Source: Candidatus Peribacteria bacterium (GTDB lineage: Bacteria; Patescibacteriota; Gracilibacteria; UBA1369; LOWO2-01-FULL-3). Taken from it: 64,000 bases of DNA. The position numbers were made by a program, and so were the translations under genes. The notes beneath the pieces were generated by a model that was not told where the DNA came from, searched no databases, and worked only from the letters and a program-made list of their open reading frames with translations. Below, in pieces: positions 24,541 to 54,997 of this stretch (positions are counted from its first letter, which is position 1; every line of letters begins with the position of its first letter). The stretch covers positions 139,012-203,011 of the forward strand of contig CALREX010000002.1 in assembly GCA_943356465.1 (NCBI GenBank), given 5' to 3'.

Positions 24541-24618
24541 GGTGAGTTTAGCTCAGTTGGTTAGAGCATTAGGTTGTGGTCCTAAGGGTCATGGGTTCGA
24601 ATCCCATAACTCACCCCA
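24541..24618 (+). tRNA. tRNA-His (anticodon GTG), G-1 and CCA encoded
   Basis: G-1 + acceptor gtgagtt/aactcac, anticodon arm ttagg-ttGTGgt-cctaa, T-arm atggg-ttcgaat-cccat, C73, CCA. Confidence 0.96.
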
Positions 24619-26178: not shown

Positions 26179-26240
26179 GTGCCTTAGATATTAGGTTTTG
26201 TTAGGTTATTTAAGATTATTCCCAAAAGGGACGACCGTGA

Positions 26241-26341
26241 CTACCCAACTCGGATTTCTTACGAAGTCTTTTGTTGGCACAGTCGCCCCTCTCGAGGCAA
26301 CAAGCAATAACTTCGTAATATTTTTCCGATTTGTTGGGTAG
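26241..26341. repeat. Nested inverted repeat / structured intergenic element
   Basis: ctacccaactcgga (26241) vs tccgatttgttgggtag (26325-26341); ttacgaagt (26259-26267) vs acttcgtaa (26310-26318); ttgttg (26271) vs caacaa (26298). Confidence 0.65.
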
Positions 26342-26364
26342 TAGATTCATTATAGTACTTGTGT

Positions 26365-26973
26365 TTATTTTCGCAATAAATTCATCTCTAATTCGGCTAT
26401 CACTCCGGTTGGAGGGATACGCTTTTCTAACCGTCTCAACCTTCTTACTTTTCGTGTGGGTCTACCTTTGTAGTGCCGCTTATGGATTGTTTTTCGCAGT
26501 TCGCATGCTTTTCTCTCGGAGTCTAATATTTTTCCGAAGTATTCAAACTTGCTTCTGCTATGCCTTTGGCTTTCATAGACAATGCTCATGCAATGACGGC
26601 ATCCAAAGTAGTCAGAACCTGCCTGATATAGTGTGTACACTGTTCTACCGCAATACCTTCCATTTTTGCATAAAGTACACTGGAAAGCCCACCTGGAACC
26701 TCCCAAATTACATGGAACTTTTACTAAAGGGAAAGAATAATCCATTTCTTTTTTTTCTCCGCCATATCTGCTTGTCGAATACTGAAAGCGTATGTTTGGA
26801 GAATTCATAAAGGAAGTGTCTACGGAAAAACTTATAGAAGCCTCGTGACCCCATCCGTTAGTCCACTTTATTCCTCCATACTTAAACCCACAAAAATAGT
26901 CATATTTTTTTAACCATTTAGTGTCAATACTGTAACCGTCATCCGATGAATTTTTTGTTGCGTACATCCCCAT
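26365..26973 (-). CDS. Putative zinc-binding protein of mobile-element type
   Basis: 202 aa; CTLCKNGRYCGRTVYTLYQAGSDYFGCRHCMSIVYESQ cysteine-pair motif. Confidence 0.65.
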   Translation of the reverse strand: MGMYATKNSSDDGYSIDTKWLKKYDYFCGFKYGGIKWTNGWGHEASISFSVDTSFMNSPNIRFQYSTSRYGGEKKEMDYSFPLVKVPCNLGGSRWAFQCTLCKNGRYCGRTVYTLYQAGSDYFGCRHCMSIVYESQRHSRSKFEYFGKILDSERKACELRKTIHKRHYKGRPTRKVRRLRRLEKRIPPTGVIAELEMNLLRK

Positions 26974-27009
26974 AATTCAGAAATCGTTAAGGATAGGTAA
27001 AACTGTCAT

Positions 27010-27034
27010 TTCGTAAGTGTATTATCGTTACGAA
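27010..27034. promoter_or_regulatory. Inverted repeat TTCGTAA-N11-TTACGAA, putative operator
   Basis: Perfect 7-nt arms directly after the small RHH ORF and upstream of the 26973 start. Confidence 0.45.
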
Positions 27035-27214
27035 TTAGCCGTTATTGCTTGTCACTTTAGGAAGTAAATCTTCCCTTTTTAAGTCTTCAATTATGAGACT
27101 TCGTATGTACGCGGAGAAGTTCATGTACTCTCTTTTTGCCTTACTCTCAGCGAGCCCGACAAGCTCAAGAGGAAGGTATACTGACTTCAGTCGGAAATTC
27201 TTTGGGTCAAACAT
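27035..27214 (-). CDS. Small ribbon-helix-helix-like protein (59 aa)
   Basis: Own translation: MFDPKNFRLKSVYLPLELVGLAESKAKREYMNFSAYIRSLIIEDLKREDLLPKVTSNNG; just below the ORF track cutoff. Confidence 0.65.
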   Translation of the reverse strand: MFDPKNFRLKSVYLPLELVGLAESKAKREYMNFSAYIRSLIIEDLKREDLLPKVTSNNG

Positions 27215-27246
27215 ATTTTGTTTGGTTAAAAATTAATTTGTATAAA

Positions 27247-29382
27247 TTAAATATCAGAAATATCCTCGTCCTTTACTCCAAAGACCTCTTTGCAAACTTC
27301 TATCTGGTCCCTCTCTTCAGAGACGTTCACATCGTTCACAATGTTCACTTCTGTCTCACTTATGCCAAATTTTATCTTGAGCTTTGCAATTCGTTCTTCA
27401 TTATCTTGATTTGAACAAAGATATATTCCTTGAGCTGATTTTCTTTTTTTGAGATGAAAGGTTTGTTCTACTACAGAACCAACTTTCTTCGCTTTAACAG
27501 GGAATTTACCAGCAAATTTTTCGTTGTAGTCTTCGGCAATCTTCTTCATTGTAGGTTCTGAATCTGTTTCTAGTGTGTTTATAATGCTTTGTAGTAGTTC
27601 ACCTTCGAAAGACCCATATCTACGTTCAAATTCGTCTCTCTGTTTATTCCCAATATATTTGAGAATAATGTCTTTACCGGCTGTGTCATCTATTATTCTG
27701 TAAAGTGGCGAAATAATCTGTCTTAGTCTCGGCTCAACATTAAGTTTGGGAAGCGTGTCTTTAGAAATACCACCGCTCAATTTTTTAAAACGAAACATTA
27801 CAAGCTTATTACGTATTCGTAATGCTCTACTCTCAAAATCATCATCAAGATTTTCTGGGATATCGTCTCGAGTCAAAGTTTCCATTGGGTTGCTCAAACA
27901 TCGACTCTCAAGAGCGTCATCCATAAAGTCTTTTCGTGTAGCTATAACCTTGGGACAAAAGACGTCAAAGGGTGTAGGATCATATGATTTATTATTTTTT
28001 CCTGTAGCTTCGCTACGAAATACTGGAATGCCTTTCTGAAAACCGGAATTGAGAATTTTTACAATTTCGTTACTTGTATCTGAAAGACGAAAATCAGCCT
28101 CGTCCAAAATTATACTTCCCTTCACTTGATGTATCATTCTAAAAATTGCAGAGGCACTAGCTGAACCATTAAGGAAGATTGGACGATAACATAGTGCTCC
28201 CATAACCTTTAAAAATCGCGATTTGCCACTTCCGTAGTCACCGATAGCTCGAAGGTAGGGCAACTCCTGAAAATGGTCATAGACCCATGAAAAAAGAGTA
28301 TAAAAGGCCGCCATATCTTCAAAACCTGCAGGAATCTGTACATAATCATGAATAAAAGACTTCACCTCTTGGAGTAGTGATATTTCAGAGTCAAAATCCA
28401 ATGCCTCCGAAGGTAATTTCACAAATCCGGGCTTAATAAGGTTGTTGGTAGGTGGTGGAGCAACATATACAATTCCATCAATTGTTACCTGAGGTATTTT
28501 TGTTGCCTTTCCATCTTCAAAAAGCAAAAGGCCTGTCTCCTCCTCAATAGGGTCATAATATGCCTCTATAATCCGTCCATCACGCGGACGGTGCCAGTAT
28601 ATTTCATGGGCTTGTCTTTCATCTTTCTTGTCTTTACTTTTAGTATTATGTTTCTGGCTTTCTTTTCCTTTAATACTGTCCCAAATAGTTCTTAGCTCGC
28701 CATCATCAAGTGGCGGATTACAGGTCTCAGAATTCCATGATTGGAAACCACTCCAACCAACTGTATCCCAAAGTTTCTTGTCGAGTTCACGAATAATTTT
28801 ACCAGCCATTTTTGTCGCTGTTTCGTTTCTTGCCCCCTGATTTACCTTTGCATCAATCGTCTCTGAACATAGTGAACTTCCTGAACTTGAAATAGAGTGT
28901 TGGTCGATAACCCAACATGGAAATTCACCAAGAGCATCCCGAGTCATTGGAGTAATCCATTCGTAATGTTTTCCAGATTTATGTAAAGAAGGTGGAGCAA
29001 TGACATAACCTCCATCACCTCGAATATCAGTGAGATCACGAATTCGTCCATAATTTTTAACTGGACGTTGCGTATCGTATTTGTAATAAAAATGCCAGCC
29101 TCCTCCTCCAGTTTGAGACATTACTGTCTTTGGCAAATCATCTATGACTCCTCCCTTTTCAACATCAACAACTACAACGCCCGAAATAGAGCCAGTCACA
29201 ATAGCAATACTTTCTATGTTATCTTTGCTTAACCATTCTCTAACTTCGGCTACTGATGGGCGTCGAGTTTGAAATTCCTTCCATGGAATAAGTGGCTTTT
29301 TATCTCTTCCTACAGGAATTACAGAAAAACCGAAATCGAGATAAGACAGTGCTTGAGATAATAATTCATTGTTCATTGTCAT
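27247..29382 (-). CDS. Bifunctional DNA primase/polymerase (Prim-Pol) with C-terminal helicase/ATPase-like region
   Basis: ALSYLDFGFSVIPVGRDKKPLIPWKEFQ, VTGSISGVVVVDVE, TGGGGWHFYYKY, DIRGDGGYVIAPPS; 711 aa. Confidence 0.85.
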   Translation of the reverse strand: MTMNNELLSQALSYLDFGFSVIPVGRDKKPLIPWKEFQTRRPSVAEVREWLSKDNIESIAIVTGSISGVVVVDVEKGGVIDDLPKTVMSQTGGGGWHFYYKYDTQRPVKNYGRIRDLTDIRGDGGYVIAPPSLHKSGKHYEWITPMTRDALGEFPCWVIDQHSISSSGSSLCSETIDAKVNQGARNETATKMAGKIIRELDKKLWDTVGWSGFQSWNSETCNPPLDDGELRTIWDSIKGKESQKHNTKSKDKKDERQAHEIYWHRPRDGRIIEAYYDPIEEETGLLLFEDGKATKIPQVTIDGIVYVAPPPTNNLIKPGFVKLPSEALDFDSEISLLQEVKSFIHDYVQIPAGFEDMAAFYTLFSWVYDHFQELPYLRAIGDYGSGKSRFLKVMGALCYRPIFLNGSASASAIFRMIHQVKGSIILDEADFRLSDTSNEIVKILNSGFQKGIPVFRSEATGKNNKSYDPTPFDVFCPKVIATRKDFMDDALESRCLSNPMETLTRDDIPENLDDDFESRALRIRNKLVMFRFKKLSGGISKDTLPKLNVEPRLRQIISPLYRIIDDTAGKDIILKYIGNKQRDEFERRYGSFEGELLQSIINTLETDSEPTMKKIAEDYNEKFAGKFPVKAKKVGSVVEQTFHLKKRKSAQGIYLCSNQDNEERIAKLKIKFGISETEVNIVNDVNVSEERDQIEVCKEVFGVKDEDISDI

Positions 29383-29390
29383 ATTTGTTA

Positions 29391-29546
29391 TTAATTTGAA
29401 GAGTGAGATTCTTTAGATATTAGTATTCTGTATAGATGAAGTAGGTTTGTTGCCATTTTTTCGGCTTCTTCATATGCTGGCGTTTCCCCGAATTCTGTCC
29501 GGTATATTTCGATAAACTCTTCAATTGATTCTTTTGATAAATTCAT
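29391..29546 (-). CDS. Small hypothetical protein (51 aa)
   Basis: Own translation: MNLSKESIEEFIEIYRTEFGETPAYEEAEKMATNLLHLYRILISKESHSSN; its start overlaps the upstream stop by 1 nt (TAATG). Confidence 0.6.
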   Translation of the reverse strand: MNLSKESIEEFIEIYRTEFGETPAYEEAEKMATNLLHLYRILISKESHSSN

Positions 29547-29830
29547 TATCTTTGATAAAGTTTCTCTTTAAGTGTTTTGACGGCGATTGCCATCTTTCTG
29601 GCATCAACCATTACCATCTCATCGTTCTCCTTCGCATAATTAAAAGCATGCAAAATCTCTTCGCAGTACATAGGTTCGGCAAAGACAAAATTTGCCCTCT
29701 TTGAATTAGTTATCTTGTCAATATTTACGAGTTCCGCATCTTTCGCAAGTAAGAAAGCGGCTGGATAGAAATTTGAGATTCTAAAGTAACGATCGTCCAT
29801 ATTTTCATTGGTTATATTTTTGTACATCAA
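29546..29830 (-). CDS. DUF5659-like small protein
   Basis: 94 aa; YFRISNFYPAAFLLAKDAELVNIDKI...RANFVF. Confidence 0.6.
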   Translation of the reverse strand: MMYKNITNENMDDRYFRISNFYPAAFLLAKDAELVNIDKITNSKRANFVFAEPMYCEEILHAFNYAKENDEMVMVDARKMAIAVKTLKEKLYQR

Positions 29831-29876
29831 AAAGCGACTTCATTGTAAATCGCTGAATTATCTTATTTTAGACTTA

Positions 29877-31439
29877 TTATTGCCTTACTTTCGTAATGAA
29901 TAAGGCCAAGCCTTCTCCTGGGACAGGTCTTAATAAATTTTCAAAGAAAGAATTTGGTAGGGCAATTTTTTTTGTTTTGCAATATTTCTCTAGCATGTTG
30001 AACAAACTTCTTCTATGGGTTTTATTGATAGATTCACGTGTTTCTTCTTGTGTCAGTCCTAGTTTTTCAATTTCTTTCCATGGTACGCATAGGACATTAT
30101 TTTTATACCCCCAATCCCAAATTTTCATGGGGATACCTCCTTTATTTACTTTACTAACATATTCTCCATTGATAGAGAATGCTACTCCGTTGAAAGTTAT
30201 CTTTAATTTGTCGTTGGAGAAAATAATAAGATCATTTTCCCTGGCAGTGGTAGAACTTATGTCTTCTTCTACTCCAAGAGCTTTCTCAAGATTAAGTTTA
30301 TATTCTTTTATTTTTTTGACATCCGGACATGTTAATACAAAGCAATCACTATGGTCTCCCCAGTCTTTGATGCAATCTGACCCTTTGAGTTTGCCTAAAA
30401 GCTTTCTAACCATAACCTTTTCTGGATGGTGATATGGCCTAACCCCCATTGCATCAAGATTGATTTCAACGTTTTCTTTGTCATCTATGAGACACTTTTC
30501 AATAATTCTTTGGAGCCAATGTGTCGTTAAATCTTTTCCTTTTCTTTCCTCAATGACCATCAGATCACGATGTTCTTCGTCTTTCCTTTTTTCTTCTTGA
30601 AATTGCAAGCGTCCCTTCTCCAACCATTCTTCCAGTTTTTCTTTTTCTCCTAAGACAGGCGTGTATGCAGGAAAAAACTTGACTGTCTTCTTTCGTACTT
30701 CTTCCGGTTGATTCTTCCTCTGCTTATTTAAATCGTCCTTGATGTATAAATGTAAGCTACGAAGAGCAAACTTATATTTTTTCATATCATAACGCAAAGG
30801 ATTATGCTGAGAGTCTGGAGCAAAAAGAAAGACATATTTTACAGTCTCCAAATAATCATATATTTTCCTGTTCCTTGCCCTAAATAACCTCTCTTTCTCT
30901 TCAATAGCCAAGAAATATGTGTCAGAGAACACCCAATTCCCGTAAATATTCCTTCTAAGATTTTTCTTGTCCAAAAATTTCTCTATTAACTTTGATTTTC
31001 CAATATTGTTCAATTCTTTGGCTATTTCAAATAATCTATTCTCCAAAACGTAACAAAATTCCTTACTGCTAGAGGCAACAGGTAAACCATTATCCACCAT
31101 ATCAATAGTCCCTATATGGACGACAAGTCCATTTCGATGGGCGTCAATATTCCCCAATATTTGCTTTATTTCTACAGAATCTATGGAGTTATCTTTTATT
31201 ATTTTTCTCAATTTCTTTTCGGACACTTCAAGTTCTGCTAAGGCTTGTTTTTCTAACAACCGTAAATTGCTATAATCCATCTCTTCAAGCGCTTCTATTT
31301 TTTTAATAACCTTTTTTAAAAGGGGAGTTTCTTCGACAAAATCAAAATACTGTTTCAGTCCAAGACAGAAATATTTGAAATCTTCCTCCTTGGCTATTGG
31401 ATCGTAGCGCTCCTGCAGTTGAGATATAACATTGTCCAT
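29877..31439 (-). CDS. Uncharacterised island protein (520 aa)
   Basis: Long intact ORF; no family recognised. Confidence 0.75.
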   Translation of the reverse strand: MDNVISQLQERYDPIAKEEDFKYFCLGLKQYFDFVEETPLLKKVIKKIEALEEMDYSNLRLLEKQALAELEVSEKKLRKIIKDNSIDSVEIKQILGNIDAHRNGLVVHIGTIDMVDNGLPVASSSKEFCYVLENRLFEIAKELNNIGKSKLIEKFLDKKNLRRNIYGNWVFSDTYFLAIEEKERLFRARNRKIYDYLETVKYVFLFAPDSQHNPLRYDMKKYKFALRSLHLYIKDDLNKQRKNQPEEVRKKTVKFFPAYTPVLGEKEKLEEWLEKGRLQFQEEKRKDEEHRDLMVIEERKGKDLTTHWLQRIIEKCLIDDKENVEINLDAMGVRPYHHPEKVMVRKLLGKLKGSDCIKDWGDHSDCFVLTCPDVKKIKEYKLNLEKALGVEEDISSTTARENDLIIFSNDKLKITFNGVAFSINGEYVSKVNKGGIPMKIWDWGYKNNVLCVPWKEIEKLGLTQEETRESINKTHRRSLFNMLEKYCKTKKIALPNSFFENLLRPVPGEGLALFITKVRQ

Positions 31440-31533
31440 TTAATATTTTTATACTCCTAGCGTGCAGAATAATCTCTTACATCAAAGAAATAAACATCTT
31501 TTTGCTTAAAGATGCACTTGTGCTTGAATTTCC

Positions 31534-32691
31534 TTAGAACTCTCTTCCCAAAAGCAAAGCGAATTTACCAGTATTTATCGGAGTAGAAGTTTTGTCCAAT
31601 TCAAAAAGAATGGATTTTATCCCGGAAACTTTTCCGCCAACTAAAATTTTCACTATTTTTGCAGTGATAAAAGGCGCCGCCTGTGAAGTGCCGGTAGCGT
31701 ACCCATAATTATTACCTGGCGTTGTACTTAAAATATCCTGCGCTTTAACTGAATAATCAACCCATGTCCCAAAATTGCTTTGAGGAAGCTTATTCCCGTC
31801 ATTTGCAAGGCCAGCCACGGCGATAGCTTTGCCGTAGGAGGCTGGATAATATTTTTTGCTGGTATTGTAATTCCCTGCGGCTGCAACTACTGGAATGTCC
31901 TTCTTAAAGGCATAATCGATGGAATCCATAAGAAGAGCAGATTTTTCACTCAAACCAAGGCTCAAATTTATAACATCAACGTTACTATCTACAGCAAACT
32001 TTATAGCCTTTGCCAAGTCACTCATTTTACCTGTTTTACCGTCCGTAAACTTTATTGGCATTATTTTCGCCGATGAATTACTAGCTATAATACCTGCTAC
32101 ATGAGTACCATGTCCATAATCGTCACTCACATCTTTATCCTCAGAAACAAAATCATATCCAGCTACAATCCTATCTTTTAAATCTTTATGGTTTATGTCC
32201 ACTCCAGAATCTACAACAGCTACAACGATATCAGTAGCGACTTCAGAATCTATGGAAACATTTGATCCATCTTCGGTTCCAGTGTCGCCATTATCGCTTA
32301 ATTCAACCTGAAAATTCGGCTCTGCATATGAAACAGCATCAATTGATTCATATTGTTTTGCTATTTCTTGTGGATCAGCATTCGTCCGAAGCTTTAAAAG
32401 GAAAACATCACCTAAAGACGAAGAACTCGCGTCACCCTTAAGTTTCACGATCAACTCTTTCTTTGGCCTAAAAATATCAAAAATGTTTGTTTGCATGAGA
32501 TTAGGAGCAAACATGTAACTCAACTTAGTTGACTCATTCAATGGCACTATATCCGTTAGTCCGTATTGTGAATTCAACAAGGCGAGTTTTTCTTTCCCAT
32601 TCTCCTCTGTTTTGCTACAAGCAGGGATTACAATCAAAGCCAAAATACAAACGGCTAAGAATTTGATTTTTTTTGTAGCAGGTAAGGACAT
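31534..32691 (-). CDS. Subtilisin-like serine protease (S8), predicted lipoprotein
   Basis: Lipobox LIVIPAC; D-H-S motifs VVDSGVDINHKDL, GHGTHVAGI, GTSQAAPF; 385 aa. Confidence 0.9.
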   Translation of the reverse strand: MSLPATKKIKFLAVCILALIVIPACSKTEENGKEKLALLNSQYGLTDIVPLNESTKLSYMFAPNLMQTNIFDIFRPKKELIVKLKGDASSSSLGDVFLLKLRTNADPQEIAKQYESIDAVSYAEPNFQVELSDNGDTGTEDGSNVSIDSEVATDIVVAVVDSGVDINHKDLKDRIVAGYDFVSEDKDVSDDYGHGTHVAGIIASNSSAKIMPIKFTDGKTGKMSDLAKAIKFAVDSNVDVINLSLGLSEKSALLMDSIDYAFKKDIPVVAAAGNYNTSKKYYPASYGKAIAVAGLANDGNKLPQSNFGTWVDYSVKAQDILSTTPGNNYGYATGTSQAAPFITAKIVKILVGGKVSGIKSILFELDKTSTPINTGKFALLLGREF

Positions 32692-32751
32692 TTTTTATGT
32701 TTAGTTCTTTATATTATAGCATTTTTAAGGATTTTTTTGAATAGGAAACAA

Positions 32752-32783
32752 AAGAGCCCACCCTCATCTTTGGGCGAGCTCTT
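32752..32783 (-). terminator. Rho-independent terminator downstream of the cohesin/SLH gene
   Basis: Minus-strand aagagctcgcccaaagatgagggtgggctctt followed by ttgttt. Confidence 0.65.
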
Positions 32784-32809
32784 AGGATATTTGATAAACT
32801 TACAAGACT

Positions 32810-35800
32810 CTATTCTGAAACCATCGAAGCCAGTTTCGCGAATTCGCCTCTTGTGATGTTCTTTGTTGGACCAAATGTGCCGTTTTTGTATCCATTTACT
32901 AATCCCTTAGCTTTTGCATAATTAATATATTTTGCATACCAAGCTGTTGAGCTAGTATCTGGGAATGTCGCAGTTTCAGCAGTCAAATCTTTCTTTGATG
33001 CTTCAAGTAATATTTTTAAAGCCTCAACTCTAGAAATCTTTTGATTTGGTTTAAATGTACCATTGCTGTATCCATCAATAATTCCGGCAGTCTTTCCAGC
33101 TGCGATATATGGAGCATACCACTCACCAATTTCAACATCGCTGAATGGTTTTTCGGTCATGCTCGTAGGAAGAGTAATTCCATATAGATTAACTACTATT
33201 TTTAGAAGCTCAGCTCTTGTTATTTGAGAATCTGGTTCAAATTTTCCTTCTGATTTACCGCTGATAACACCTTTTAGTCTTAAGTTGTCTATGAATGTTT
33301 CTGCCCAGTGTCCATTAACATCGCCGAATGGTGCAGCTACATCTGAAGACTGCAATTCAACAGCAACATCTTTAACTACCTCTTTTACTACTTTTTTCTT
33401 AGAAGGGCTTCCACCACCACCTCCTCCTCCTCCCCCGCCGCCGCCACCTCCATTTGTGACAGAACTGAACGAAGCAAATGATGTGAAATGTTTAGTCCAA
33501 ACAACTAAGTCTGATCCAACTGCAATTTTACAATCTCCATCTACCCCTAAGGCATCACCTGTAGACTGGTTGTCTGCTACACAAGTGTTTGTAATTTCAG
33601 TAAATGTTGTTCCGGTTCTAACATATCCAGCTCTCTTCCCTGCTTGACCAGGAAGTAATACTCTTACTCCCTTATCAAAAGATAATTTAGCTCCAGTAAA
33701 TCCAATTTCTATAGCCATTCCGAAGGTTCTAGTTTCACCAGACGCTTCAGGTATAGTAACTGTTGTTACCGTTGGAGCGGCAATTACTCCATCCCAGCTA
33801 GGATCAGCACTAGTCACTGTTGTGGAAGCTGGAATTGTTACATTTCCAAGGCTAGAATTCATAGTGATTGCAGGTATTGTTCCAGTTCCTCCAGAAACGA
33901 ATGAACCTACGTCGATTGTTGGATTAGTTGTCTCACCACCGATTGTTACAGTAACCGCTTGTGTTGGGTTAGTAATTACAACCTGAGGAGTTGTACTATC
34001 GACAGTAGCGGCTCCTGATCCGTTTGGCGTAGTTTGAGCAGCAGTTAGGCTAGAATCAACTAATAATAACTCTGCTGGATTACCTGCAAGATCAGAAATG
34101 TTAACGATAACGTCATTAGCGAAAGTAGTAATTTCTGTTGCAGTAATTGTCAATGTAGCTCCTGTCCAAGAGTAAGCTAAAGTTTTGTCAGCGCCTGCAG
34201 TCAAAGCATTTTGAACTGCTGTTTTAGAGCTATCTGATAGGACTTCACTGAATATTAAATCTGTAGTTCCTACAGATAATGCTAAATCAGTCGAATTGTC
34301 TCCAAGTTTAGTAACAGTCGGAGCAGTATTATCAACAGTCACAGGAATACCGGCAGACTGATAAGAATTTCCTGCTACATCATATACTCTTATGAATACT
34401 GAATGACTTCCTTCAGGTGCAAGTGTTGTATCCCAATTGATAGAGTATGGAGACACAGTATCTTCACCAATTTTAGTACCAACGCTTGCATACCAGAACT
34501 CAACTTTATCAACACCAGAGCCTACGTCTGAGGCAGTTGCATTAAGAGCAACAGTGCCTTTTAAATAAGAGTCTGCAGTAATATTTGAGATTGATCCTGT
34601 TGGATTAATAATATCTGGATCAACAGTGATAGTGTAAACGACTTCTGTTGTTCCATCTTGAGCAGTTACTTTTAATGTATTTCCACTTACTACTGGATCC
34701 GCAACTCCAGTGTAATCCCACGTCTGATGAGTTTCACTTTTTGCTAGGGCGGCTAAGAAAGTTGCCTTAGATGTACCGAATGGCACTCCTGTAATAGTCT
34801 CGCTACCAGTTTCTCCTACGCTTACAGTATAAGTTCCAGAAGTAATTGTGGCGATAGTGCTAGCAGGCAATTTAAGCACAATCAATGTAAAGTCTTTTGT
34901 TTGAGTAATAACTCCTTTAGTAAGAGTTGCTGTCAAAGTAACTGTTGTATTTCCATCTGCAAAAACTGGTCTATTTATTGTTTGACCATCGTTACTTACC
35001 GCACCTGTATTTGAAGATGTCCAAGTAATAGTTGATCCATTTACAGTTCCGATTGATGGCAATGGATTAGTAAGAGCTAATGTAACGTTTAGTAAATCAG
35101 CATTTCCTCCTTTAATTGCATCATCCACTAAAGCATCTCTGTCTGCTGTTACTTTGGCAATATCAGGATTATCAGAAACTGTAATTGTATAAGTTACAGT
35201 TGTTGTTCCGTCTTGAGCTGTTACTTTTAATGTATTTCCACTTACTACTGGATCAGCAATACCTGCAGAATCCCACGTCTGATTATCTTCCCCTTTTGTC
35301 AAAGCAGACAAGAAATCAGCTTTTGCTGTACCAAAAGGAACATTTGTAATAGTTTCGCTAGATGTTCCTCCTGCACTTACTGTATAAGCACCAGAATTTA
35401 CCGTAGCAATTGTGCTAGCTGGCATTTTAAGTACAGTTAGAGTGAATGCTTTTGTGTCAGTTAGGCCGCCCTTAGCAAGAGTTGCTGTCATTGTGACAGT
35501 TGCATTACTTGCAACGAAAGCAGGTCTATTTACCGTTTGTCCATCATTACTTACTACTGATGCATTTGAAGATTCCCATGTAATTATTGATCCATTTGCC
35601 CCAACTGATGGCAACGGATTAGTAAGTGAACCTGTAACATTTGATAAATTAGAGTTTGATCCTTTTATAGAATTATCTACTAGATCAGCTTTATCTGCCG
35701 CCAATAGTGCAATATTTGGATCAGCTGAAACATTAACCGTAACAGTATAAGCTTGAGTAGAAGAATTTTCAGCAGTCACTGTGTATGTTACTGGATTAGT

Positions 35801-36733
35801 GAAGTTTTGAGCTACGCCAGAGGCAGGATTGACTGAAGCCTTAGCGGAAATTGCAATAGTTGGCACAAGTGCAGTAACATTTGTTCCGAATGGAACACTT
35901 ACGGCAATATTAGTCCCCGTAATAACACCACTACCTTCTGGAAAACTAAAAGAAGTAATACTTTTAGCAGAACTTAGAGGTGCAACTATATTAACACTAT
36001 AGGTTGTTGTTTTTCCTCCGACCGTAATTGTTAATACTTGACCACTTACGGCTACTGAGCTGTCAAAACCAGTTATATTTGATGCCGTAATAGTTTCAAC
36101 TTTAGTGCTTGCATCGCTATATGTTCCAGTAACAACTAAACCTGAAATATCCAATGAATCTCCTACCGTATAAGTAAGTTTATTCGCTGGACTTGTTATT
36201 GCTATGCTTGAAAGTGTTGCGGCTGGATTTAGAGAGACGACTCCGTTTGTGAATGTTGTAGTTATTGGATCAGCAGCAGCATCACTTATTTCTTTTGCTC
36301 CAGCAAATGTTAAATTTGCATTAGTTGTTGTTCCTGAAACAACCGTGAAATTTAAAGTTAGAAGTGTACCGCTGGACAAAGTTAAAGCAGCAGAATCAAA
36401 CCAGTTTATTTTTATTGGATTGCTTCCAGCCCCGCTAATGGCCAAAGTTCCGTGTCCAGAAATATCGTTTTGTGTATATCCAGTATATGTAAGAAGTGCA
36501 CTGTCGTACTGAACATCAAAAGTCATTCCAGCAATTACGTTACCAAAATTACTAGCGCTCACTGGCACAGTTATATTTGCCCCATTTAAAGCGGATTGAG
36601 ACCCTATGGTTAGGGTCGGAGAAGGGGCGATTGCCATTGCAGTCGAGCCAAGAGTCAAACTTGAAACGACCATCAAAGACATAAGCGCAGAGCTTATAAT
36701 CTTCTTAAGATTGATCAACATTTTGTTGTTCAT
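32810..36733 (-). CDS. Surface protein: signal peptide, cohesin domain, Ig-like/cadherin-like repeats, poly-Gly linker, three C-terminal SLH domains
   Basis: 1307 aa; cohesin-like SPTLTIGSQSALNGANITVPVSASNFGNVIAGMTFDVQYDSALLTYTGY...LLTLNFTVVSG...FTNGVVSL; SLH repeats FGDVNGHWAETFIDNLRLKGVISGKSEGKFEPDSQITRAELLKIV etc. Confidence 0.88.
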   Translation of the reverse strand: MNNKMLINLKKIISSALMSLMVVSSLTLGSTAMAIAPSPTLTIGSQSALNGANITVPVSASNFGNVIAGMTFDVQYDSALLTYTGYTQNDISGHGTLAISGAGSNPIKINWFDSAALTLSSGTLLTLNFTVVSGTTTNANLTFAGAKEISDAAADPITTTFTNGVVSLNPAATLSSIAITSPANKLTYTVGDSLDISGLVVTGTYSDASTKVETITASNITGFDSSVAVSGQVLTITVGGKTTTYSVNIVAPLSSAKSITSFSFPEGSGVITGTNIAVSVPFGTNVTALVPTIAISAKASVNPASGVAQNFTNPVTYTVTAENSSTQAYTVTVNVSADPNIALLAADKADLVDNSIKGSNSNLSNVTGSLTNPLPSVGANGSIITWESSNASVVSNDGQTVNRPAFVASNATVTMTATLAKGGLTDTKAFTLTVLKMPASTIATVNSGAYTVSAGGTSSETITNVPFGTAKADFLSALTKGEDNQTWDSAGIADPVVSGNTLKVTAQDGTTTVTYTITVSDNPDIAKVTADRDALVDDAIKGGNADLLNVTLALTNPLPSIGTVNGSTITWTSSNTGAVSNDGQTINRPVFADGNTTVTLTATLTKGVITQTKDFTLIVLKLPASTIATITSGTYTVSVGETGSETITGVPFGTSKATFLAALAKSETHQTWDYTGVADPVVSGNTLKVTAQDGTTEVVYTITVDPDIINPTGSISNITADSYLKGTVALNATASDVGSGVDKVEFWYASVGTKIGEDTVSPYSINWDTTLAPEGSHSVFIRVYDVAGNSYQSAGIPVTVDNTAPTVTKLGDNSTDLALSVGTTDLIFSEVLSDSSKTAVQNALTAGADKTLAYSWTGATLTITATEITTFANDVIVNISDLAGNPAELLLVDSSLTAAQTTPNGSGAATVDSTTPQVVITNPTQAVTVTIGGETTNPTIDVGSFVSGGTGTIPAITMNSSLGNVTIPASTTVTSADPSWDGVIAAPTVTTVTIPEASGETRTFGMAIEIGFTGAKLSFDKGVRVLLPGQAGKRAGYVRTGTTFTEITNTCVADNQSTGDALGVDGDCKIAVGSDLVVWTKHFTSFASFSSVTNGGGGGGGGGGGGGGSPSKKKVVKEVVKDVAVELQSSDVAAPFGDVNGHWAETFIDNLRLKGVISGKSEGKFEPDSQITRAELLKIVVNLYGITLPTSMTEKPFSDVEIGEWYAPYIAAGKTAGIIDGYSNGTFKPNQKISRVEALKILLEASKKDLTAETATFPDTSSTAWYAKYINYAKAKGLVNGYKNGTFGPTKNITRGEFAKLASMVSE
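34600..35720 (-). repeat. ~555-bp tandem coding repeat (~185 aa Ig-like units) within the cohesin/SLH protein
   Basis: SNDGQTVNRP/SNDGQTINRP and ADPVVSGNTLKVTAQDGTT recur; gttacttttaatgtatttccacttactactggatc at ~34666 and ~35221. Confidence 0.8.
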
Positions 36734-36770
36734 ATTAGGTTAGTTGTTATTAGATATTTATTATGAATAA

Positions 36771-39347
36771 TTACCATGATTTATTTACATCACCCATTTT
36801 TACGCCAACAAAATCTTGACCAGTCATGTCGGCTATTAAATTACTATAGGTTCTGGTTTGTGCAGAAGTTAAATAATTTGTTGCGTCCAATGCAGCACTA
36901 GAAGGATAAAATTTCCATGCTCCTGATGTCAAAACTGAATCAAGTCCAACTATAAACCTACCTATTTTTATTTGATCTGCACTCGTTAGACTTCCACTAT
37001 TGTTTACATCTCCGGCGATTATCTTAAAAATCGTATCAAAAAGTTCAAGTCCAACTATGTGTCTACCTATCTTTATTTGATCCGCACTTGAAAGCCCTGA
37101 GGTATCACTACCCTTACTTACCTTAACAACATAATTGCCTCCATTTGCCACTCCCGTAAATTGATATGCTCCGTTTGCGTCAGTTGTAGTGGTAGCTAAT
37201 TGAGTCCCAACAGCGTCTTCCAAAGTCACAGTAGCACTTGGAATCGCTTTTATTCCATCGTAATACTTTACTGTTCCTGAAATTATATGAGTTGCTGGAG
37301 CTAAGGAATTAAGAGCATTAAAGGCATTAATTCTTTTCCCTGAAACTGTTTTCCCAGACAACGAAGCTACACTATCTCCAGTATTTAGAATTGTGTCTTT
37401 TACTTGAGTATAAGTTAATTCCGGCTTGTATCCCCAAATCAAAGCCGCAAGTCCGGCCACATGTGGAGCCGCCATAGATGTGCCATCCTCATAAGCATAT
37501 TTTTCATCTGAACCATCAGAATATCTGGTAATCTTCATGTCATCAACGAAACAACCATCTCCATTGCCAGTATCTGTATTTCCGTTTGCTACCCATCTAA
37601 ATCTCATTTTAAAGTTGTTTGTCAAATATTCAGTTGGAATACTTAAATTTTCGAAATGATATACCGCAGAACCGGCAGGATCTGTGTCTGAATCCAAATA
37701 TGGTTCATCCCATCGCAAAACTTCAGTAAAAGTACTTCCGCCATTGCTGCTAAATTCCAAACTCATATAATCAGTCCAGCTTGTAGTACTGTATTCGGTA
37801 TCACATCTTGTCCAAAAATCAAGATTTCCACCATTACTTAGGTTGTATGTTGAAGATGTGGTAGTAGAATTTGCCGTTTGAGCATATGGAACATTGACGG
37901 CATCTCCATACAATACATTCCCAATAGTTCCGCCATAATTATAAGTACCCCAGTTTCCAGTTTTAGCCCATCCACTCGGTACACTAGGAGCGGTTACGCC
38001 ATCAAAATTTTCAGACATAACTGGTAAATCAGTTGATGGCACTGTGCTGTAAATATTAGTTCCAGGTGCCCCAACGTCTATGGAAGTAGAGCTAAAATTA
38101 GAAAAATCAGCGAGATTATCATTTTGATCAGTGGCCGCAACTGAAATAATATTAGATGAATCAAAACTTGCAGGATAGAGAGTTTGATTTTGACTTGTGC
38201 ATCCATTAACTGAAAAAGTATTGATATCACCACAGTTTCCGGCAGACACTATAAATAGACCAGTAAATGAATCTATGCCATCCTTTAGTGCCTGATCGTA
38301 ATTTGAGCTACCCCAGCTTGCATTTATAATTTTTGCTCCATTTTGTTTAGCGAAATTAATACCTTTTACAATTTCGGCAGTAGTTAAGGAAGATTTTATC
38401 GCCATTATCTTTATGTTTGGAGCAACCCCCATGATGCCCTTGCCGTTGTTCTTTACTGCTCCTATAGTCCCCGCAATGTGAGTCCCATGAGAAGAAGTAG
38501 TTGGCAATGGAGTTTTATCATTATCTTCATAGTCATATCCATGATTACAGCCATTCATAGTGCTACCATTTTCGTCCTTACAATTTGTCCCATCCCACAT
38601 ATTCGCTATCAAGTCAGGATGGTTATACGCCACACCGCTATCAATAATAGCCAAAATTACAGAAGAATTTGTTCCTTCATTTATTGCCCATGCTTCTGGA
38701 GCATCAATATCTTTATCAGTAGTCCCTGTAATATTTCCATAACTACCATTAATAGTCTGCCCAAGATTATCTAGTCCCCATAAAAGGCTAACGTTAGTGT
38801 CGTTTGCATTGATAGTCGCAGGATAATATTGAAAGTTTGGTTGGGCATATTCTACATTCGGATCTTTTTTTAATTCCGCAACCTTCTCTTCTACGGTTTT
38901 ATCATCTGTGATCCTTAAAATTGAAGTATTTATCTTTTTTAAATCTTCTTCTTTCTGTAAGGACTTTGACTTCATAAAACTCAAGGCTTTACTTTTTCCA
39001 GAGGAGGTTGAAAGGTTTATTTTACTAATTTTATACTTTACTAAAATCTCACCTTCTACATAATCTGCCTGAGTTTGTGGCAATTCACTGCCTATATCAG
39101 ACGTAGAAATTTGTTCTTTTGCTTGAAGATTTGTGTCTTTCGGCAAAGCTGTAGTAGCTGTATCAATAGGTGCCAAATTTTCTTTGACTGATCTCACCTG
39201 CTGTTCATATAGACTTTGCAAAGGTTTGTCGGTATCAGAAACCAAATTTCCCGCATATGCCTGCGATCCTATTGCAGAAAAAACATACACAAATAAAAGA
39301 AAAGACATTCTTAACTTTAAGAACTTTTTTTGCCACAGTTTAAACAT
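36771..39347 (-). CDS. Secreted subtilisin-like protease (S8) with carboxypeptidase-regulatory-like and C-terminal dockerin domains
   Basis: 858 aa; IIDSGVAYNHPDL, SSHGTHIAGTIG, GTSMAAPHVAGLAAL; ISGTVKYYDG..TVTLEDAVG; dockerin-like AGDVNNSGSLTSADQIKIGRFIVGL preceded by a degenerate copy SGLSSADQIKIGRHIVGL. Confidence 0.88.
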   Translation of the reverse strand: MFKLWQKKFLKLRMSFLLFVYVFSAIGSQAYAGNLVSDTDKPLQSLYEQQVRSVKENLAPIDTATTALPKDTNLQAKEQISTSDIGSELPQTQADYVEGEILVKYKISKINLSTSSGKSKALSFMKSKSLQKEEDLKKINTSILRITDDKTVEEKVAELKKDPNVEYAQPNFQYYPATINANDTNVSLLWGLDNLGQTINGSYGNITGTTDKDIDAPEAWAINEGTNSSVILAIIDSGVAYNHPDLIANMWDGTNCKDENGSTMNGCNHGYDYEDNDKTPLPTTSSHGTHIAGTIGAVKNNGKGIMGVAPNIKIMAIKSSLTTAEIVKGINFAKQNGAKIINASWGSSNYDQALKDGIDSFTGLFIVSAGNCGDINTFSVNGCTSQNQTLYPASFDSSNIISVAATDQNDNLADFSNFSSTSIDVGAPGTNIYSTVPSTDLPVMSENFDGVTAPSVPSGWAKTGNWGTYNYGGTIGNVLYGDAVNVPYAQTANSTTTSSTYNLSNGGNLDFWTRCDTEYSTTSWTDYMSLEFSSNGGSTFTEVLRWDEPYLDSDTDPAGSAVYHFENLSIPTEYLTNNFKMRFRWVANGNTDTGNGDGCFVDDMKITRYSDGSDEKYAYEDGTSMAAPHVAGLAALIWGYKPELTYTQVKDTILNTGDSVASLSGKTVSGKRINAFNALNSLAPATHIISGTVKYYDGIKAIPSATVTLEDAVGTQLATTTTDANGAYQFTGVANGGNYVVKVSKGSDTSGLSSADQIKIGRHIVGLELFDTIFKIIAGDVNNSGSLTSADQIKIGRFIVGLDSVLTSGAWKFYPSSAALDATNYLTSAQTRTYSNLIADMTGQDFVGVKMGDVNKSW

Positions 39348-39431
39348 TGTTATTTAGTTATGATGCTGTTGACCAAGAGAGAACTGTACCACTTTTTTCG
39401 AAAAATGCAAGCCTGTTTTTTTCTTCAACTA

Positions 39432-39866
39432 TTACAGCCATTGTGCCACACCTCCGTGATGAGAACAAGTTCCACTTCTATGTTTGCTAAAACTATAGGT
39501 GCCGTCTCTGCATAAAGCGCTGGCTCCAGATGGAACAGAGCTTGAATATGCCGGAGAATGAACCTGATTACCATCTACATTTGTATAATAATTGTCGTTA
39601 GATAAAGAATTTGTCTTTGCGCTAGAGCTTGTCGATTCATAAATATTTACTTTCTGAGAAGAATTTGATGTCTGAGAACTAACCTCTGGCTTTATGTCTG
39701 CCTGTTTATTAATAATGGCAGATGGCGCATCTTTAGATTTCTCAACAGTCGTTTGATTGTATTGTAAAAGAGAGGCCTTGGAATCAGAGCTTAAAGAGCC
39801 AAGATTGCTAGTACATCCAACAAGGAACAAACACGAAGCTAATATAAACGAAAGTAATTTTTTCAT
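39432..39866 (-). CDS. Lipoprotein with DUF3761-like C-terminal domain
   Basis: Lipobox FLVGC; C-terminus ALCRDGTYSFSKHRSGTCSHHGGVAQWL; 144 aa. Confidence 0.75.
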   Translation of the reverse strand: MKKLLSFILASCLFLVGCTSNLGSLSSDSKASLLQYNQTTVEKSKDAPSAIINKQADIKPEVSSQTSNSSQKVNIYESTSSSAKTNSLSNDNYYTNVDGNQVHSPAYSSSVPSGASALCRDGTYSFSKHRSGTCSHHGGVAQWL

Positions 39867-40100
39867 TCCAATACAAGTTTATTTATAGTCCTTTTAGTTG
39901 ATTGTAATGGCAATTTTGCTTTTAGGCTAGGCATATTCCAAAATTTTGAAAAATGCCGAACAGCCGTTTCGTAATTATATGTGAGTCCAAAGGGGGCATC
40001 GACTACCGGCGCCGAGCACCTCACCTATAAAATAGCGTATAGCTTTATCCTATACATTACCGTAATGTAACTGTAGTAGTATTGTTCGAACATCGTCTAT

Positions 40101-40119
40101 TAACTCACCCCAGAAAAAA
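40101..40119. repeat. Additional partial copy of the tRNA-His 3' end
   Basis: taactcaccccagaaaaaa shared with 40203-40221 and (first 15 nt) with tRNA-His 24607-24621. Confidence 0.7.
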
Positions 40120-40172
40120 GCTGGCGAGTCCGCAGGGTTCGACAGGTTTTTTGTTGGAGTGATATGAGATTC

Positions 40173-40217
40173 GAAGTTTATGCCCCGGAGGGGTAAATCC
40201 CATAACTCACCCCAGAA
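40173..40217. repeat. attR-like tRNA-His 3'-end copy preceded by the GAAGTTTATRCCCCGRAGGGGTAAATCC linker
   Basis: 22-nt identity with 24600-24621 (40196-40217); linker 40173-40200 shared with 46520-46547 (26/28). Confidence 0.85.
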
Positions 40218-46383: not shown

Positions 46384-46458
46384 TGGGGCGTGGCCAAGTG
46401 GTAAGGCAGCGGGTTTTGGTCCCGCCATTCGTGGGTTCGAATCCTACCGCCCCAACCA
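46384..46458 (+). tRNA. tRNA-Gln (anticodon TTG), CCA encoded
   Basis: Acceptor tggggcg/cgcccca, anticodon arm gcggg-ttTTGgt-cccgc, T-arm gtggg-ttcgaat-cctac, A + CCA. Confidence 0.95.
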
Positions 46459-46497
46459 TTTCAAGATAGCTCTACCGAAGGTAGAGGTGGCTTGAAA
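46459..46497 (+). repeat. Composite hairpin with GAA loop immediately downstream of tRNA-Gln
   Basis: tttcaag...cttgaaa outer stem, ctctacc-gaa-ggtagag inner stem; no T-tract. Confidence 0.75.
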
Positions 46498-46504
46498 TTT
46501 ATTT

Positions 46505-46561
46505 GGGCGAGAAGGATGAGAAGTTTATACCCCGAAGGGGTAAATCCTACCGCCCCAACCA
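46505..46561 (+). repeat. tRNA-tail hairpin: degenerate antisense tail + linker + exact 19-nt copy of the tRNA-Gln 3' end
   Basis: aatcctaccgccccaacca at 46440-46458 and 46543-46561; gggcg/cgccc, aggat/atcct, tacccc-gaa-ggggta stems. Confidence 0.8.
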
Positions 46562-51372: not shown

Positions 51373-52164
51373 TCAGGCTACAACAGGCTTGAAGATTCTT
51401 GTTACTGGTGTCTTGTTAAAGTCTACAGGGTTTTCATGCAATTTCCATTTTGTGTCGTGGCTTCCGCTTGCAAGTTGTGCGATTTTACCGCTCTGATCGA
51501 TCCATCTTATGAAAATTGCGCTATGGTTACCGCGGCTGTCGACAGCTTCTTTGAGCTTCGGTTTTTGTTTAAGTTTTCCTTCGTTATAAAGTTGCATTTT
51601 TTCTTGATACTCTTGTTCGCGTTTTGTTTCCAAATTGTAAAATATATGATCTCCAGGCTGAATTGAGGCATACTGCGCTTCCCCTGCATGAGCTTCTCCA
51701 CAATTTTTTCCTGTGTATTTTTCAAGCGATGAAAAAACTTGTTTTCTTTTTACTCCCGCTTTTGCGTAAATTTTTGAAACCCAGTCCCAGCAGTGTTTTG
51801 CGCCCGAAATACCCTGATTGTAAGTATCACTTGCTACGCCAATTGCTGTATTTAATGCTTTCTGGCTTGCTGTTGATAGATTTTCAACAGTTGTATGAAT
51901 TTGGTCTTGAGATTCCGCAATGACTTGCTGTGCTTTTTGTTCGGCTTTTTCGGTTGTTTGATCTTTTTCGGCTTTAAGTCTATCCATTTCTTCTGTAAAT
52001 GAATCTACAAATAACTTTGCTTTGGCAAAAAAACCTTTGTCCTTGTTTTCTTTGGCTGCCTCATATGCTTTTTTCAAACTTGGCATGATATTGTCAAAAA
52101 ATTCAGCATGAAGAATCTTGCCTATACTATCGAGCCCCAAAGATTTTGTTATTGATTCAAACAT
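51373..52164 (-). CDS. Shared N-terminal module + CHAP/NlpC-like putative peptidoglycan amidase
   Basis: N-terminus IMPSLKKAYEAAKENKDKGFFAKAKLFVDSFTEEMDRL; C-terminus GAKHCWDWVSKIYAKAGV...IQPGDHIFYN...GNHSAIFIRW. Confidence 0.7.
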   Translation of the reverse strand: MFESITKSLGLDSIGKILHAEFFDNIMPSLKKAYEAAKENKDKGFFAKAKLFVDSFTEEMDRLKAEKDQTTEKAEQKAQQVIAESQDQIHTTVENLSTASQKALNTAIGVASDTYNQGISGAKHCWDWVSKIYAKAGVKRKQVFSSLEKYTGKNCGEAHAGEAQYASIQPGDHIFYNLETKREQEYQEKMQLYNEGKLKQKPKLKEAVDSRGNHSAIFIRWIDQSGKIAQLASGSHDTKWKLHENPVDFNKTPVTRIFKPVVA

Positions 52165-52690: not shown

Positions 52691-53527
52691 ATGTCAGAAG
52701 TGCAGTCAATAAATAAATCACCGGAACAAGGAGCACTTGCAAAAGCTATTGGGCTTGATGCGGTTGGAAAGGCATTCGGTCTTGAGTCATTCAAGAATGT
52801 TGTACCGAGCCTTAAGAAAGCAATGGAACTTGCAAATCAGAATAAAGATAAGAGTTTTTTTGATAAAATCAGCATATTTGTAACTTCGTTTACGGATGAA
52901 ATGGATAAATTAGATGTAAATAAAAAACAAATTGCCATGGATGCCGAGGCAAAAGCACGAAAAATCGTGGAAGAAGCAAAAACCGCTCAAGTAAAAGCTC
53001 CTGATTCTAATGTAGCTCCTATTTCAAATCCTGAAAATTCTTCAGAAGTGGATCCGAATGAGCCATTTGTGAAAGACAGAGATCATTTTGGCAATCAGGT
53101 TATCTTGAGAAAAAGCGCTATGAAAGCATTTAAAAATGCAATGAAAATTGCTGATGGGAAAGGCATTAGACTAAAAGTTGTTTCTTCATATCGCGATTTT
53201 GAGACTCAGGCCAGAATACGTGCTAGAAATGAAAATAAACATGTACATGATGTTGGAAAGTGGGTTTCTAAGGCTGGACATTCAAATCATCACACAGGTG
53301 GAACTATGGATATAGCTGCAATGGTGCAGGATAGTCACGGCAAATGGGTTGGAGGAACCCGTCATGAAAATCAAAAATTATTGTGGGATATATTGCCGAA
53401 AGCCGGATTCGTAAATTACAAACCTGAACCTTGGCATTGGGAAATATATAGCGAAAGATGGCTAGCAGCGCAAAAAAATGTTGCCGGAAAGACTGTTTAT
53501 AAAAAACAAGCAACTTTAAATGCATAA
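52691..53527 (+). CDS. Shared N-terminal module + VanY-type D-alanyl-D-alanine carboxypeptidase
   Basis: VVPSLKKAMELANQNKDKSFFDKISIFVTSFTDEMDKL; SSYRDFETQARI, GHSNHHTGGTMDIA, EPWHWEIYSERW. Confidence 0.85.
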   Translation: MSEVQSINKSPEQGALAKAIGLDAVGKAFGLESFKNVVPSLKKAMELANQNKDKSFFDKISIFVTSFTDEMDKLDVNKKQIAMDAEAKARKIVEEAKTAQVKAPDSNVAPISNPENSSEVDPNEPFVKDRDHFGNQVILRKSAMKAFKNAMKIADGKGIRLKVVSSYRDFETQARIRARNENKHVHDVGKWVSKAGHSNHHTGGTMDIAAMVQDSHGKWVGGTRHENQKLLWDILPKAGFVNYKPEPWHWEIYSERWLAAQKNVAGKTVYKKQATLNA

Positions 53528-53530
53528 TAT

Positions 53531-54997
53531 ATGGAAATACTTGAATCAATCGGAAAAGCCCTTGGAATCGAATCACTACAAAATGTTGTACCAAGCTTGA
53601 AAAAAGCTTACGAGGTTGCATTTAAAAATAACGACAAAAGTTTTTTGGAAAAAATCAGCCTGTTTTACGATTCCTATACCCAGGAAAAGGATAAGCTTGA
53701 TAAAGAAAAAAAAGGTATAGCAGCTAGCACAGATGAAAAAGTGAAGGCGACCCTTAAAGGAGTGCAAACACCTGAAGTGACCGCTGTTATAAAAACTCCT
53801 GATGGGCCTAGTGTTGTTGACTCAATAAAAGTACGCTTAAAAGATGGTCAGAAAGCTATGTCTAGACTTATCGAAAGAATGTTTACAGAAAGGCTAAAAC
53901 AATTTGATAAAGGTTTGTCAGATGAGGCTATTCGTAGAATTGTAATTGCGGCACTTGCGAATGCTTATGGGGAATCCAGTTTTAATCCAAATCTGGTTGG
54001 AGATGGAGTAGACAGTGTGGGTCTTTTTCAGTTAAATAGAAATGGGCTTGGGCATGGTATGTATAAATCCTGGAAAGAGGAGTTGAAGACAAATCCAAGT
54101 GCTCCCGATCCGAGAAAAGATCCAGTTAAAAATATAAGTAAAATTTTGGATAATGTCACAGGTAATCTTGGAAAATCTCTTATCGCTCGTGCAAAAGCCG
54201 GAGCTGAAATTCCCGAGCTTATTAAGATTTTTTGTTATGAAATTGAAAATCCGGCAAAAAAAGCTCTTAATACTAATGAAAGAATTGCTTTTGCCAAAAG
54301 TTTTTTCGGTGGAGATCTTTCACGTGCACCTAACGCCGTTGCCTCAAGCGCACCAGCTGCCATACCTGTGGCGCCTAATGTTGCTTCTGATTCTCACGAG
54401 ACTCTTGGAAAAAATCTACATTTCCCTATCGATCTTGGCGGGATTAAACATGGACTTTGCGACCTTGCTTCCGGTCAAAGAAACTGGTTTTTTGGAAGCA
54501 GCAGCGTTGCAGGCATGTCTAAAAGCATGGGAGGTAGATTGGGAATAGTAGGTGTAAATGCAAATGAATTTTTGCAAAATCTTAAAAGCACATGGTGGAA
54601 TAAAATTGAAACAGCAGGCTTAAAACCTCCATACCAGGTTGTTATTACAGGGCTTGGACAGAACAGTGTTTCAAATGATTCTTCCGTCAGACAAGCTCTT
54701 GTTTCATACGAGGGAATCAGAAGTTTTCTTTCAAGCAAAGGTGTAAACAGGATAAAATTTATTACTGTTAATCCAGGAGGAAAATATGGAGTATTCTGTG
54801 CAAAATTTAATGAAGAATTGGTAAGGAAATATGGCAGTAATTGTGTTGATGTAAGGCCTTATACAACAACCGCAGATGGCTCAAAAGTAAAAGATGAATT
54901 TGACGGTGGAATACACTTAAACGGCAAAGGTAAAAAAGAATGGAGAAAAGTTGTTCTTTCTGCCTTAAATGAGAGCCCTCAAGTTGCCAGTAGATAG
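53531..54997 (+). CDS. Shared N-terminal module + lysozyme-like domain + SGNH-hydrolase-like domain
   Basis: VVPSLKKAYEVAFKNNDKSFLEKISLFYDSYTQEKDKL; ANAYGESSFNPNLVGDGVDSVGLFQLN; FFGSSSVAGMS...VVITGLGQNSVS...GGIHLNGKGKKEW. Confidence 0.75.
   Translation: MEILESIGKALGIESLQNVVPSLKKAYEVAFKNNDKSFLEKISLFYDSYTQEKDKLDKEKKGIAASTDEKVKATLKGVQTPEVTAVIKTPDGPSVVDSIKVRLKDGQKAMSRLIERMFTERLKQFDKGLSDEAIRRIVIAALANAYGESSFNPNLVGDGVDSVGLFQLNRNGLGHGMYKSWKEELKTNPSAPDPRKDPVKNISKILDNVTGNLGKSLIARAKAGAEIPELIKIFCYEIENPAKKALNTNERIAFAKSFFGGDLSRAPNAVASSAPAAIPVAPNVASDSHETLGKNLHFPIDLGGIKHGLCDLASGQRNWFFGSSSVAGMSKSMGGRLGIVGVNANEFLQNLKSTWWNKIETAGLKPPYQVVITGLGQNSVSNDSSVRQALVSYEGIRSFLSSKGVNRIKFITVNPGGKYGVFCAKFNEELVRKYGSNCVDVRPYTTTADGSKVKDEFDGGIHLNGKGKKEWRKVVLSALNESPQVASR

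Follow-up and report, generated by a model that had tools for sequence, protein, structure and literature searches.

The closest described systems are the tRNA-linked repeats (TLRs), a class known in E. coli since 1978 and represented in strain K-12 by 22 copies at ten loci (PMC8144298, citing Egan and Landy 1978 and Rudd 1999). The name and the feature common to the class, a tail of 18–19 bp identical to that of the upstream gene, are given in the same paper (PMC8144298). The TLR RNAs rrA, rrB, and rrF are made by read-through of the first terminator and bind Hfq and CsrA in vitro; the role once ascribed to RtT RNA in recovery from starvation has been retracted (PMC8144298). RtT members have also been described near Asn and Lys tRNA genes in one species of Pasteurellaceae (PMC4986893). 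Both papers describe TLRs in γ-proteobacteria only; the units presented below extend this architecture, together with its core, to Patescibacteria and Oscillospiraceae.

In a 64,000-nt stretch of DNA from a Candidatus Peribacteria bacterium (hereafter, the window), two units have been found that very probably are of the TLR type, in a compact TLR/RtT variant. Each comprises, in this order, a tRNA tail (T1), a hairpin (hA) whose outer stem is formed by the trailer and its complement, an imperfect antisense tail (T′), a second hairpin (hB) with the core GAUGAGAAGUUUAU, and a copy of the tail (T2). The core in hB, GAUGAGAAG or GAUUCGAAG, is followed by UUUAU and then by a GC hairpin. The window units are about 101–103 bp long, and their hB is a single short hairpin. 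The coordinates are collected in Table 1.

Table 1. Parts of the two units and their tRNA genes, in window coordinates
Feature	Position	Strand	Basis
tRNA-Gln (ttg), host gene of the Gln unit	46384..46458	+	ARAGORN
T1 of the Gln unit, 3′ tail of tRNA-Gln, AATCCTACCGCCCCAACCA, 19 nt	46440..46458	+	
hA of the Gln unit, hairpin directly 3′ of CCA	46459..46497	+	fold, covariation
T′ of the Gln unit, imperfect antisense of the Gln tail (GGGCGAGAAGGAT)	46505..46517	+	
hB of the Gln unit, conserved core GAGAAGTTTAT and ACCCC-GAA-GGGGT hairpin	46518..46542	+	
T2 of the Gln unit, exact copy of the tRNA-Gln tail	46543..46561	+	
tRNA-His (gtg), original host gene of the His unit	24542..24618	+	
Present-day tRNA-His tail AATCCCATAACTCACCCCA, left island end	24600..24618	+	
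tRNA-His tail and trailer remnant (TAACTCACCCCAGAAAAAA), where the His unit begins	40101..40119	+	
hA of the His unit	40114..40152	+	
T′ of the His unit (GGAGTGATATGAGATTCGAAG)	40156..40176	+	
hB of the His unit	40177..40195	+	
T2 of the His unit, matching the His tail exactly; the repeat extends to 40221 into the trailer	40196..40214	+	

The Gln unit starts at the first base past the CCA of its tRNA, i.e., directly downstream of the gene, as TLRs do, and its core reads AAGGATGAGAAG; in the His unit, GATTCGAAG stands in place of GGAUGAGAA. The RNA fold of hA in the Gln unit has z = −5.5 against shuffles, and the helix covaries across 16 aligned units, while hA of the His unit on its own folds only weakly better than shuffles. 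A first-pass annotation had set the limits of the element at 46499–46561; the true start is 46459, the first hairpin having been left out. The 28-nt linker GAAGTTTATRCCCCGRAGGGGTAAATCC which it had reported was found again at both places (46520–46547 and 40173–40200, plus strand) with 26 of 28 positions identical, occurs nowhere else in the window, and would be expected 0 times by chance (shuffles). Its last five bases (AATCC) already belong to the copied tail. The tail copies claimed at 46543–46561 and after the second linker were reproduced exactly, as repeats of T1 and of the present-day His tail, respectively, so that the 18–19 bp identity typical of TLRs is present as 19 exact nucleotides at both Gln and His.

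The tRNA-His locus was said to carry the same architecture at the end of an island. This is true of the layout; the His unit itself lies outside the island and its att core, beyond the right end. The island (~15.5 kb, window 24607–40115) carries a large serine recombinase, a Prim-Pol primase, and a subtilase; the recombinase gene (24589–26178), whose product has Resolvase, Recombinase, and Zn-ribbon domains, overlaps tRNA-His. The two island ends share the 15-bp att core TAACTCACCCCAGAA (24607–24621 and 40101–40115). It could be supposed that the units are remnants of attachment sites left by tRNA-targeting islands or phages, given that the His unit and a unit with a Ser tail (locus L209) both lie at apparent island ends sharing TTCGAACWTCGTCYAWT. 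This is, however, hardly credible, because most units stand behind tRNAs with no island, the att core is a stretch different from the unit, and a nearly constant unit length is found at many tRNAs. The link of the unit to the His island is incidental, and the simplest sequence of events would be insertion of the island into the tail of a tRNA-His already carrying the unit. The tRNA loci of the congeners hold no His unit for comparison.

As to the islands themselves, the presence of TTCGAACWTCGTCYAWT at two apparent right ends, one beside the His unit (window 40084–40102) and one beside the unit with the Ser-tga tail (L209:14–30), suggests one island family entering tRNA tails in this species. 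Elsewhere in the window, four proteins (23056–24051, 51373–52164, 52691–53527, and 53531–54997) look alike by eye over their first ~60 residues, with the N-terminal pattern ...SLKKAYE...NKDKSFF.K...F..SFT.E.DKL; their C-terminal parts differ, and some of these resemble cell-wall enzymes.

The genome from which the window comes (G000; 1.08 Mb, 98% complete) bears the linker pattern at four places, all of them tRNA tails (His, Gln-ttg, Lys-ctt, and Tyr). Reading downstream of tRNAs, together with covariance-model matches, added units at Val-tac, Asn, Glu-ttc (truncated), Glu-ctc, Gln-ctg, Ser-gct, and Ser-gga, as well as an orphan unit, close to the end of a contig, whose tail is that of Ser-tga. 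The genome therefore holds 12 units rather than two, at several loci as is usual for TLRs; ten adjoin tRNAs and two are separated from theirs. In the four congeners whose tRNA loci were compared (G000, G001, G002, and G003), every linker found by pattern sits at a tRNA tail or at the displaced His tail, and the tail matches, which strongly bears out the earlier view of an element family carrying copies of tRNA 3′ ends; neither condition named there as refuting it, linkers away from tRNA tails or two copies alone, applies. In the comparison of tRNA loci, units follow 3–8 of the ~30 tRNAs in each congener and are missing from orthologous tRNAs of sister species; at Lys-ctt of G003, they stand in tandem. 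Downstream of tRNA-Trp in the own genome (contig C1, ~55.8–56.0 kb), there are partial degenerate anticodon-to-tail repeats of this tRNA that lack hB and represent another type of tRNA repetition.

The fold of the units is conserved. Among 16 aligned units, 89.5% of cells pair versus 73.9% in shuffles, with a covariation of 0.447 versus 0.170 ± 0.016; for 26 core units from several phyla, 82.1% of cells pair, and covariation is 0.316 versus 0.150 ± 0.015. On the tRNA-sense strand, the ratio of G-U to A-C cells is 15:0 in hA and 36:1 in hB (51:1 together), while shuffles of hB alone give an expectation of 38:15.6; about 30 of the 51 G-U cells come from one conserved column, without which the bias is smaller but persists. 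As the hairpins vary by G-U and almost never by A-C, it is the tRNA-sense strand that folds. The acceptor part of the T′/T2 stem, with 24 G-U and 41 A-C cells, shows no clear RNA constraint of this kind. Nevertheless, T′ fits its own tRNA: in the acceptor part, 179 cells are Watson–Crick pairs versus 100.6 ± 8.4 when tails are dealt among units, a value reached in 0 of 500 shuffles, which is not an exact probability because the units are partly related. T2 equals T1 over 17 nt in 19 of 25 units from the four congeners. The covariation of T′ with T2 could, however, arise from copying instead of selection.

These data bear on the proposal that the unit is a selected small RNA or a decoy of the tRNA 3′ end, in which T′–hB–T2 with its CCA would bind tRNA-processing or other factors and selection would keep the tails matched. 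The sense-strand G-U bias and the covariation would fit, as would the annotation of E. coli RttR as an RNA and the in vitro binding of Hfq and CsrA by rrA/B/F. Yet pairing is poor in the acceptor part of T′, few tRNAs per congener carry a unit and sister species lack it at orthologous genes, RtT has lost its proposed starvation role, and RtT matches, at 1–14 places per genome, occur in 4711 of 5426 E. coli genomes, with ~13% having none. Taken together, this makes the proposal improbable. A hammerhead-like reading of GAUGA...GAA was also considered and dropped, as many units have GATTCGAAG there.

Comparison of the congeners has revealed where the units differ between genomes. At the Tyr locus, whose right flank is shared by G000, G001, and G003, T1 and T2 jointly differ between G001 and the other two, and the T-stem part of T′ varies along with them; at Glu-ctc, T1 and T2 have likewise changed together between G000 and G001, with T′ lagging behind. 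The Lys-ttt site is filled in G002 and empty, with the same flank, in G000, G001, and G003; the difference between filled and empty sites is one unit between tail repeats, ~26 bp being repeated on both sides of it in G002. In the same genome, Ser-tga and Val-gac have in common an extended hB (87 of 89 positions identical), of which Val-tac bears a diverged copy, while their hA differ and T′ and T2 are each gene's own. Therefore, hB can pass between genes while the tails remain local, although a shared hB would also result from gene conversion among units already in place.

The same observations could be read in favor of a non-autonomous mobile element, folded as a single strand (integron-attC-like or REP-like) and inserted at tRNA tails by a trans-acting recombinase, the tail being the target duplication. 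Besides the filled and empty Lys-ttt sites, such a reading would account for tandem arrays bounded by the tail, for the terminator-like hairpins that follow T1 as well as T2 at several loci, as though self-supplied, and for the same hB in unrelated phyla and at several tRNAs of G002. On the other hand, the unit has no ORF, and a T′ that fits the new tRNA is not provided by simple insertion. A dedicated mobilizer correlating with the units was found neither among Y1 transposases nor among reverse transcriptases or tyrosine recombinases; a mobilizer, if there is one, could be an enzyme of the host or belong to a different family. Tyrosine recombinases, counted without regard to the integron subtype, number just two in G000, and none was found in G003 despite its 14 model matches. 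An IS200/IS605 or REP/Y1 model was rejected for the absence of Y1 transposases from G000, G002, and G003, a primer-binding-site/reverse-transcription model because reverse transcriptases are uncorrelated with the units, and viral carriage because the linker pattern was found in no viral contig. The mobile reading is accordingly rather unlikely. Of the two properties, mobile or structural, proposed in the first-pass annotation, covariation upholds the second; mobility is not shown, as no dedicated mobilizing enzyme was found and the filled and empty sites may just as well reflect loss of the unit through recombination of the tail repeats. Tail repeats behind tRNAs should not automatically be read as integration scars.

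The best explanation, to which a probability of roughly 55% may be assigned, is that of a compact TLR that owes its upkeep and its spread to ordinary recombination and to template switching at tRNA tails. The hairpin hA is terminator-like here and a real intrinsic terminator in several relatives; by analogy, the unit would be transcribed solely by read-through past hA, which would yield a second hairpin, T′–hB–T2, with the CCA end of the tRNA itself at its 3′ side. Changes in the tRNA may be carried over into T2 when the direct repeats T1 and T2 recombine or slip, and quasipalindrome template switching, by which imperfect inverted repeats in E. coli become more perfect (PMC7202029), may then correct T′ towards T2. 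Template switching and repeat recombination can thus explain the tail matching; housekeeping processes would suffice for the identity of the tails, with no need for a dedicated transposase. The chances of this being the upkeep mechanism are about even. A benefit of the units to the cell is somewhat doubtful. As the borders of the hB core (GATTCGAA and AATCC) are T-arm sequence of almost every tRNA, recombination or template switching would carry the core from one tRNA to the next. Against the best explanation stand the length of the repeats, which at ~19–26 bp are short for efficient gene conversion, the excess of A-C over G-U in the acceptor part of T′/T2, the possible origin of the T′/T2 covariation in copying, the lack of T′ at the E. 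coli rrnB TLR, and an account of the first arrival at a new tRNA that is given in outline, without detail.

An alternative based on replication would dispense with the element as such: snap-back at the terminator and T-arm palindromes would produce a neutral tandem inversion duplication. The order T–T′–T is indeed the one seen in an inverted triplication that turns at hairpins, for which a replication model (ODIRA) has been tested in yeast (PMC4689423). Nonetheless, the hB core is conserved over several phyla and is not tRNA sequence, which makes this alternative very improbable as the sole cause. A bolder reading is that the hB core spreads among stable-RNA genes across bacterial phyla, rebuilding the antisense arm and the tail from each new host by templated synthesis. 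This seems unlikely; were it true, the traveling hB would be a minimal element able to write for itself the ends that match its target.

Within the family, 14 of 30 genomes are matched by model R1 (E ≤ 0.01), although a few of its lowest-scoring matches are probably false, and the core model R2 matches 21 of 380 genomes sampled across Patescibacteria. Five of the weakest model matches (L052, L055, L056, L113, and L115) contain no clear unit and were set aside as probably false. A linker-pattern scan of GTDB contigs retrieved 17 stretches, including five Oscillospiraceae loci and others named as Uhr-, Shapiro-, Falkow-, Moran-, and Paceibacterota and to Peri/Peregrinibacteria; one pattern match lacking a tRNA (L078, UBA6908) is probably due to chance or decay. 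In nine genomes of the scan stretches, R2 gives 1–9 matches per genome. Among 25 loci from these genomes, ten have an intact tRNA directly upstream by the test applied, and others have tail copies with the tRNA absent, fragmentary, or not recognized. Behind tRNAs with GTCC for ATCC, the units read GGACGAG...AAGTCC. Two loci deserve a separate mention: at L216 (tRNA-Gln ctg, genome G130), a second, 5′-truncated tRNA copy separates the gene from its TLR unit, and at L053 (tRNA-Ser gga, genome G026), hA is a 14-bp stem around ~100 nt and hB is long. In such a deep comparative set, the fixed parts (core, hB fold, and tail copy) are separable from the gene-specific ones (T′ and T2), and direct tests become possible of unit transcription, of tail matching after tRNA changes, and of what moves the core between genes.

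The sites of integrons, attC, are imperfect inverted repeats that contain a conserved bulge and whose terminal part varies in length. The units would share this layout as a resemblance only; in contrast to attC, they are bound to tRNA tails and are accompanied by no cassette ORF and no identified integron integrase.

The likeness to E. coli TLRs goes much further. In both cases, single or tandem units lie directly 3′ of a stable-RNA gene at several loci per genome with no settled function, and the 3′ end of 18–19 bp is identical to that of the upstream gene; the E. coli core is GGATGAGAAG. At proK, where the order and the core are the same, a terminator lies between the two tails, in the place of the terminator-like hA here, and in tRNA-Pro units from an E. 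coli and a Salmonella record, hA is a strong terminator-like hairpin. What differs is the phylum and the length, ~170 bp in E. coli versus ~101–103 bp in the window. rrA, rrB, and rrF, located 3′ of E. coli 5S rRNA, likewise have an 18-bp repeat of the gene end and a terminator after each copy, whereas the rrnB TLR has neither the antisense tail nor the GATGAGAA core; as it has a tail copy all the same, T′ is not essential to the class. This 5S-linked TLR (L243), with its tail copy from 5S rRNA, shares the hairpin GAACGTTGC..GCAACGGCCCGnAGGG with tRNA-linked RtT.

RtT RNA (Rfam RF00391, RttR of tyrT/tyrV) shares with the window units the pairing of T′ with the tail copy, the CCA tail at the 3′ end, and a core, GGAUGAGAA, between the antisense tail and hB (AAGGATGAGAAG in the Gln unit, GGGGAAGGATGAGAAG in E. 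coli). In K-12, the four units at tyrT/tyrV measure 175–178 bp and agree in both order and core, GGGGAAGGATGAGAAG...GAGT-AATCCTTCCCCCACCACCA; in strain SK1144, the space between the two tyr genes is empty of units. The hB of RtT RNA is long and multi-hairpin, unlike the single short hairpin of the window units. The RtT model finds no match in the window units at E ≤ 1, short of the Rfam gathering score of 45 bits; matches in two relatives stay below this threshold as well, with 30.4 bits at L053, the best of the Patescibacteria loci tested, and 24.1 bits at L101. Since model R2 scores weakly against E. coli RtT (16.2 bits), with an alignment out of the expected register, the link to RtT rests on the architecture, the core motif, and the position. 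The window units have those features of the class that can be read from sequence and miss the RtT score, and they are therefore filed as a compact TLR variant rather than as RtT RNA proper.
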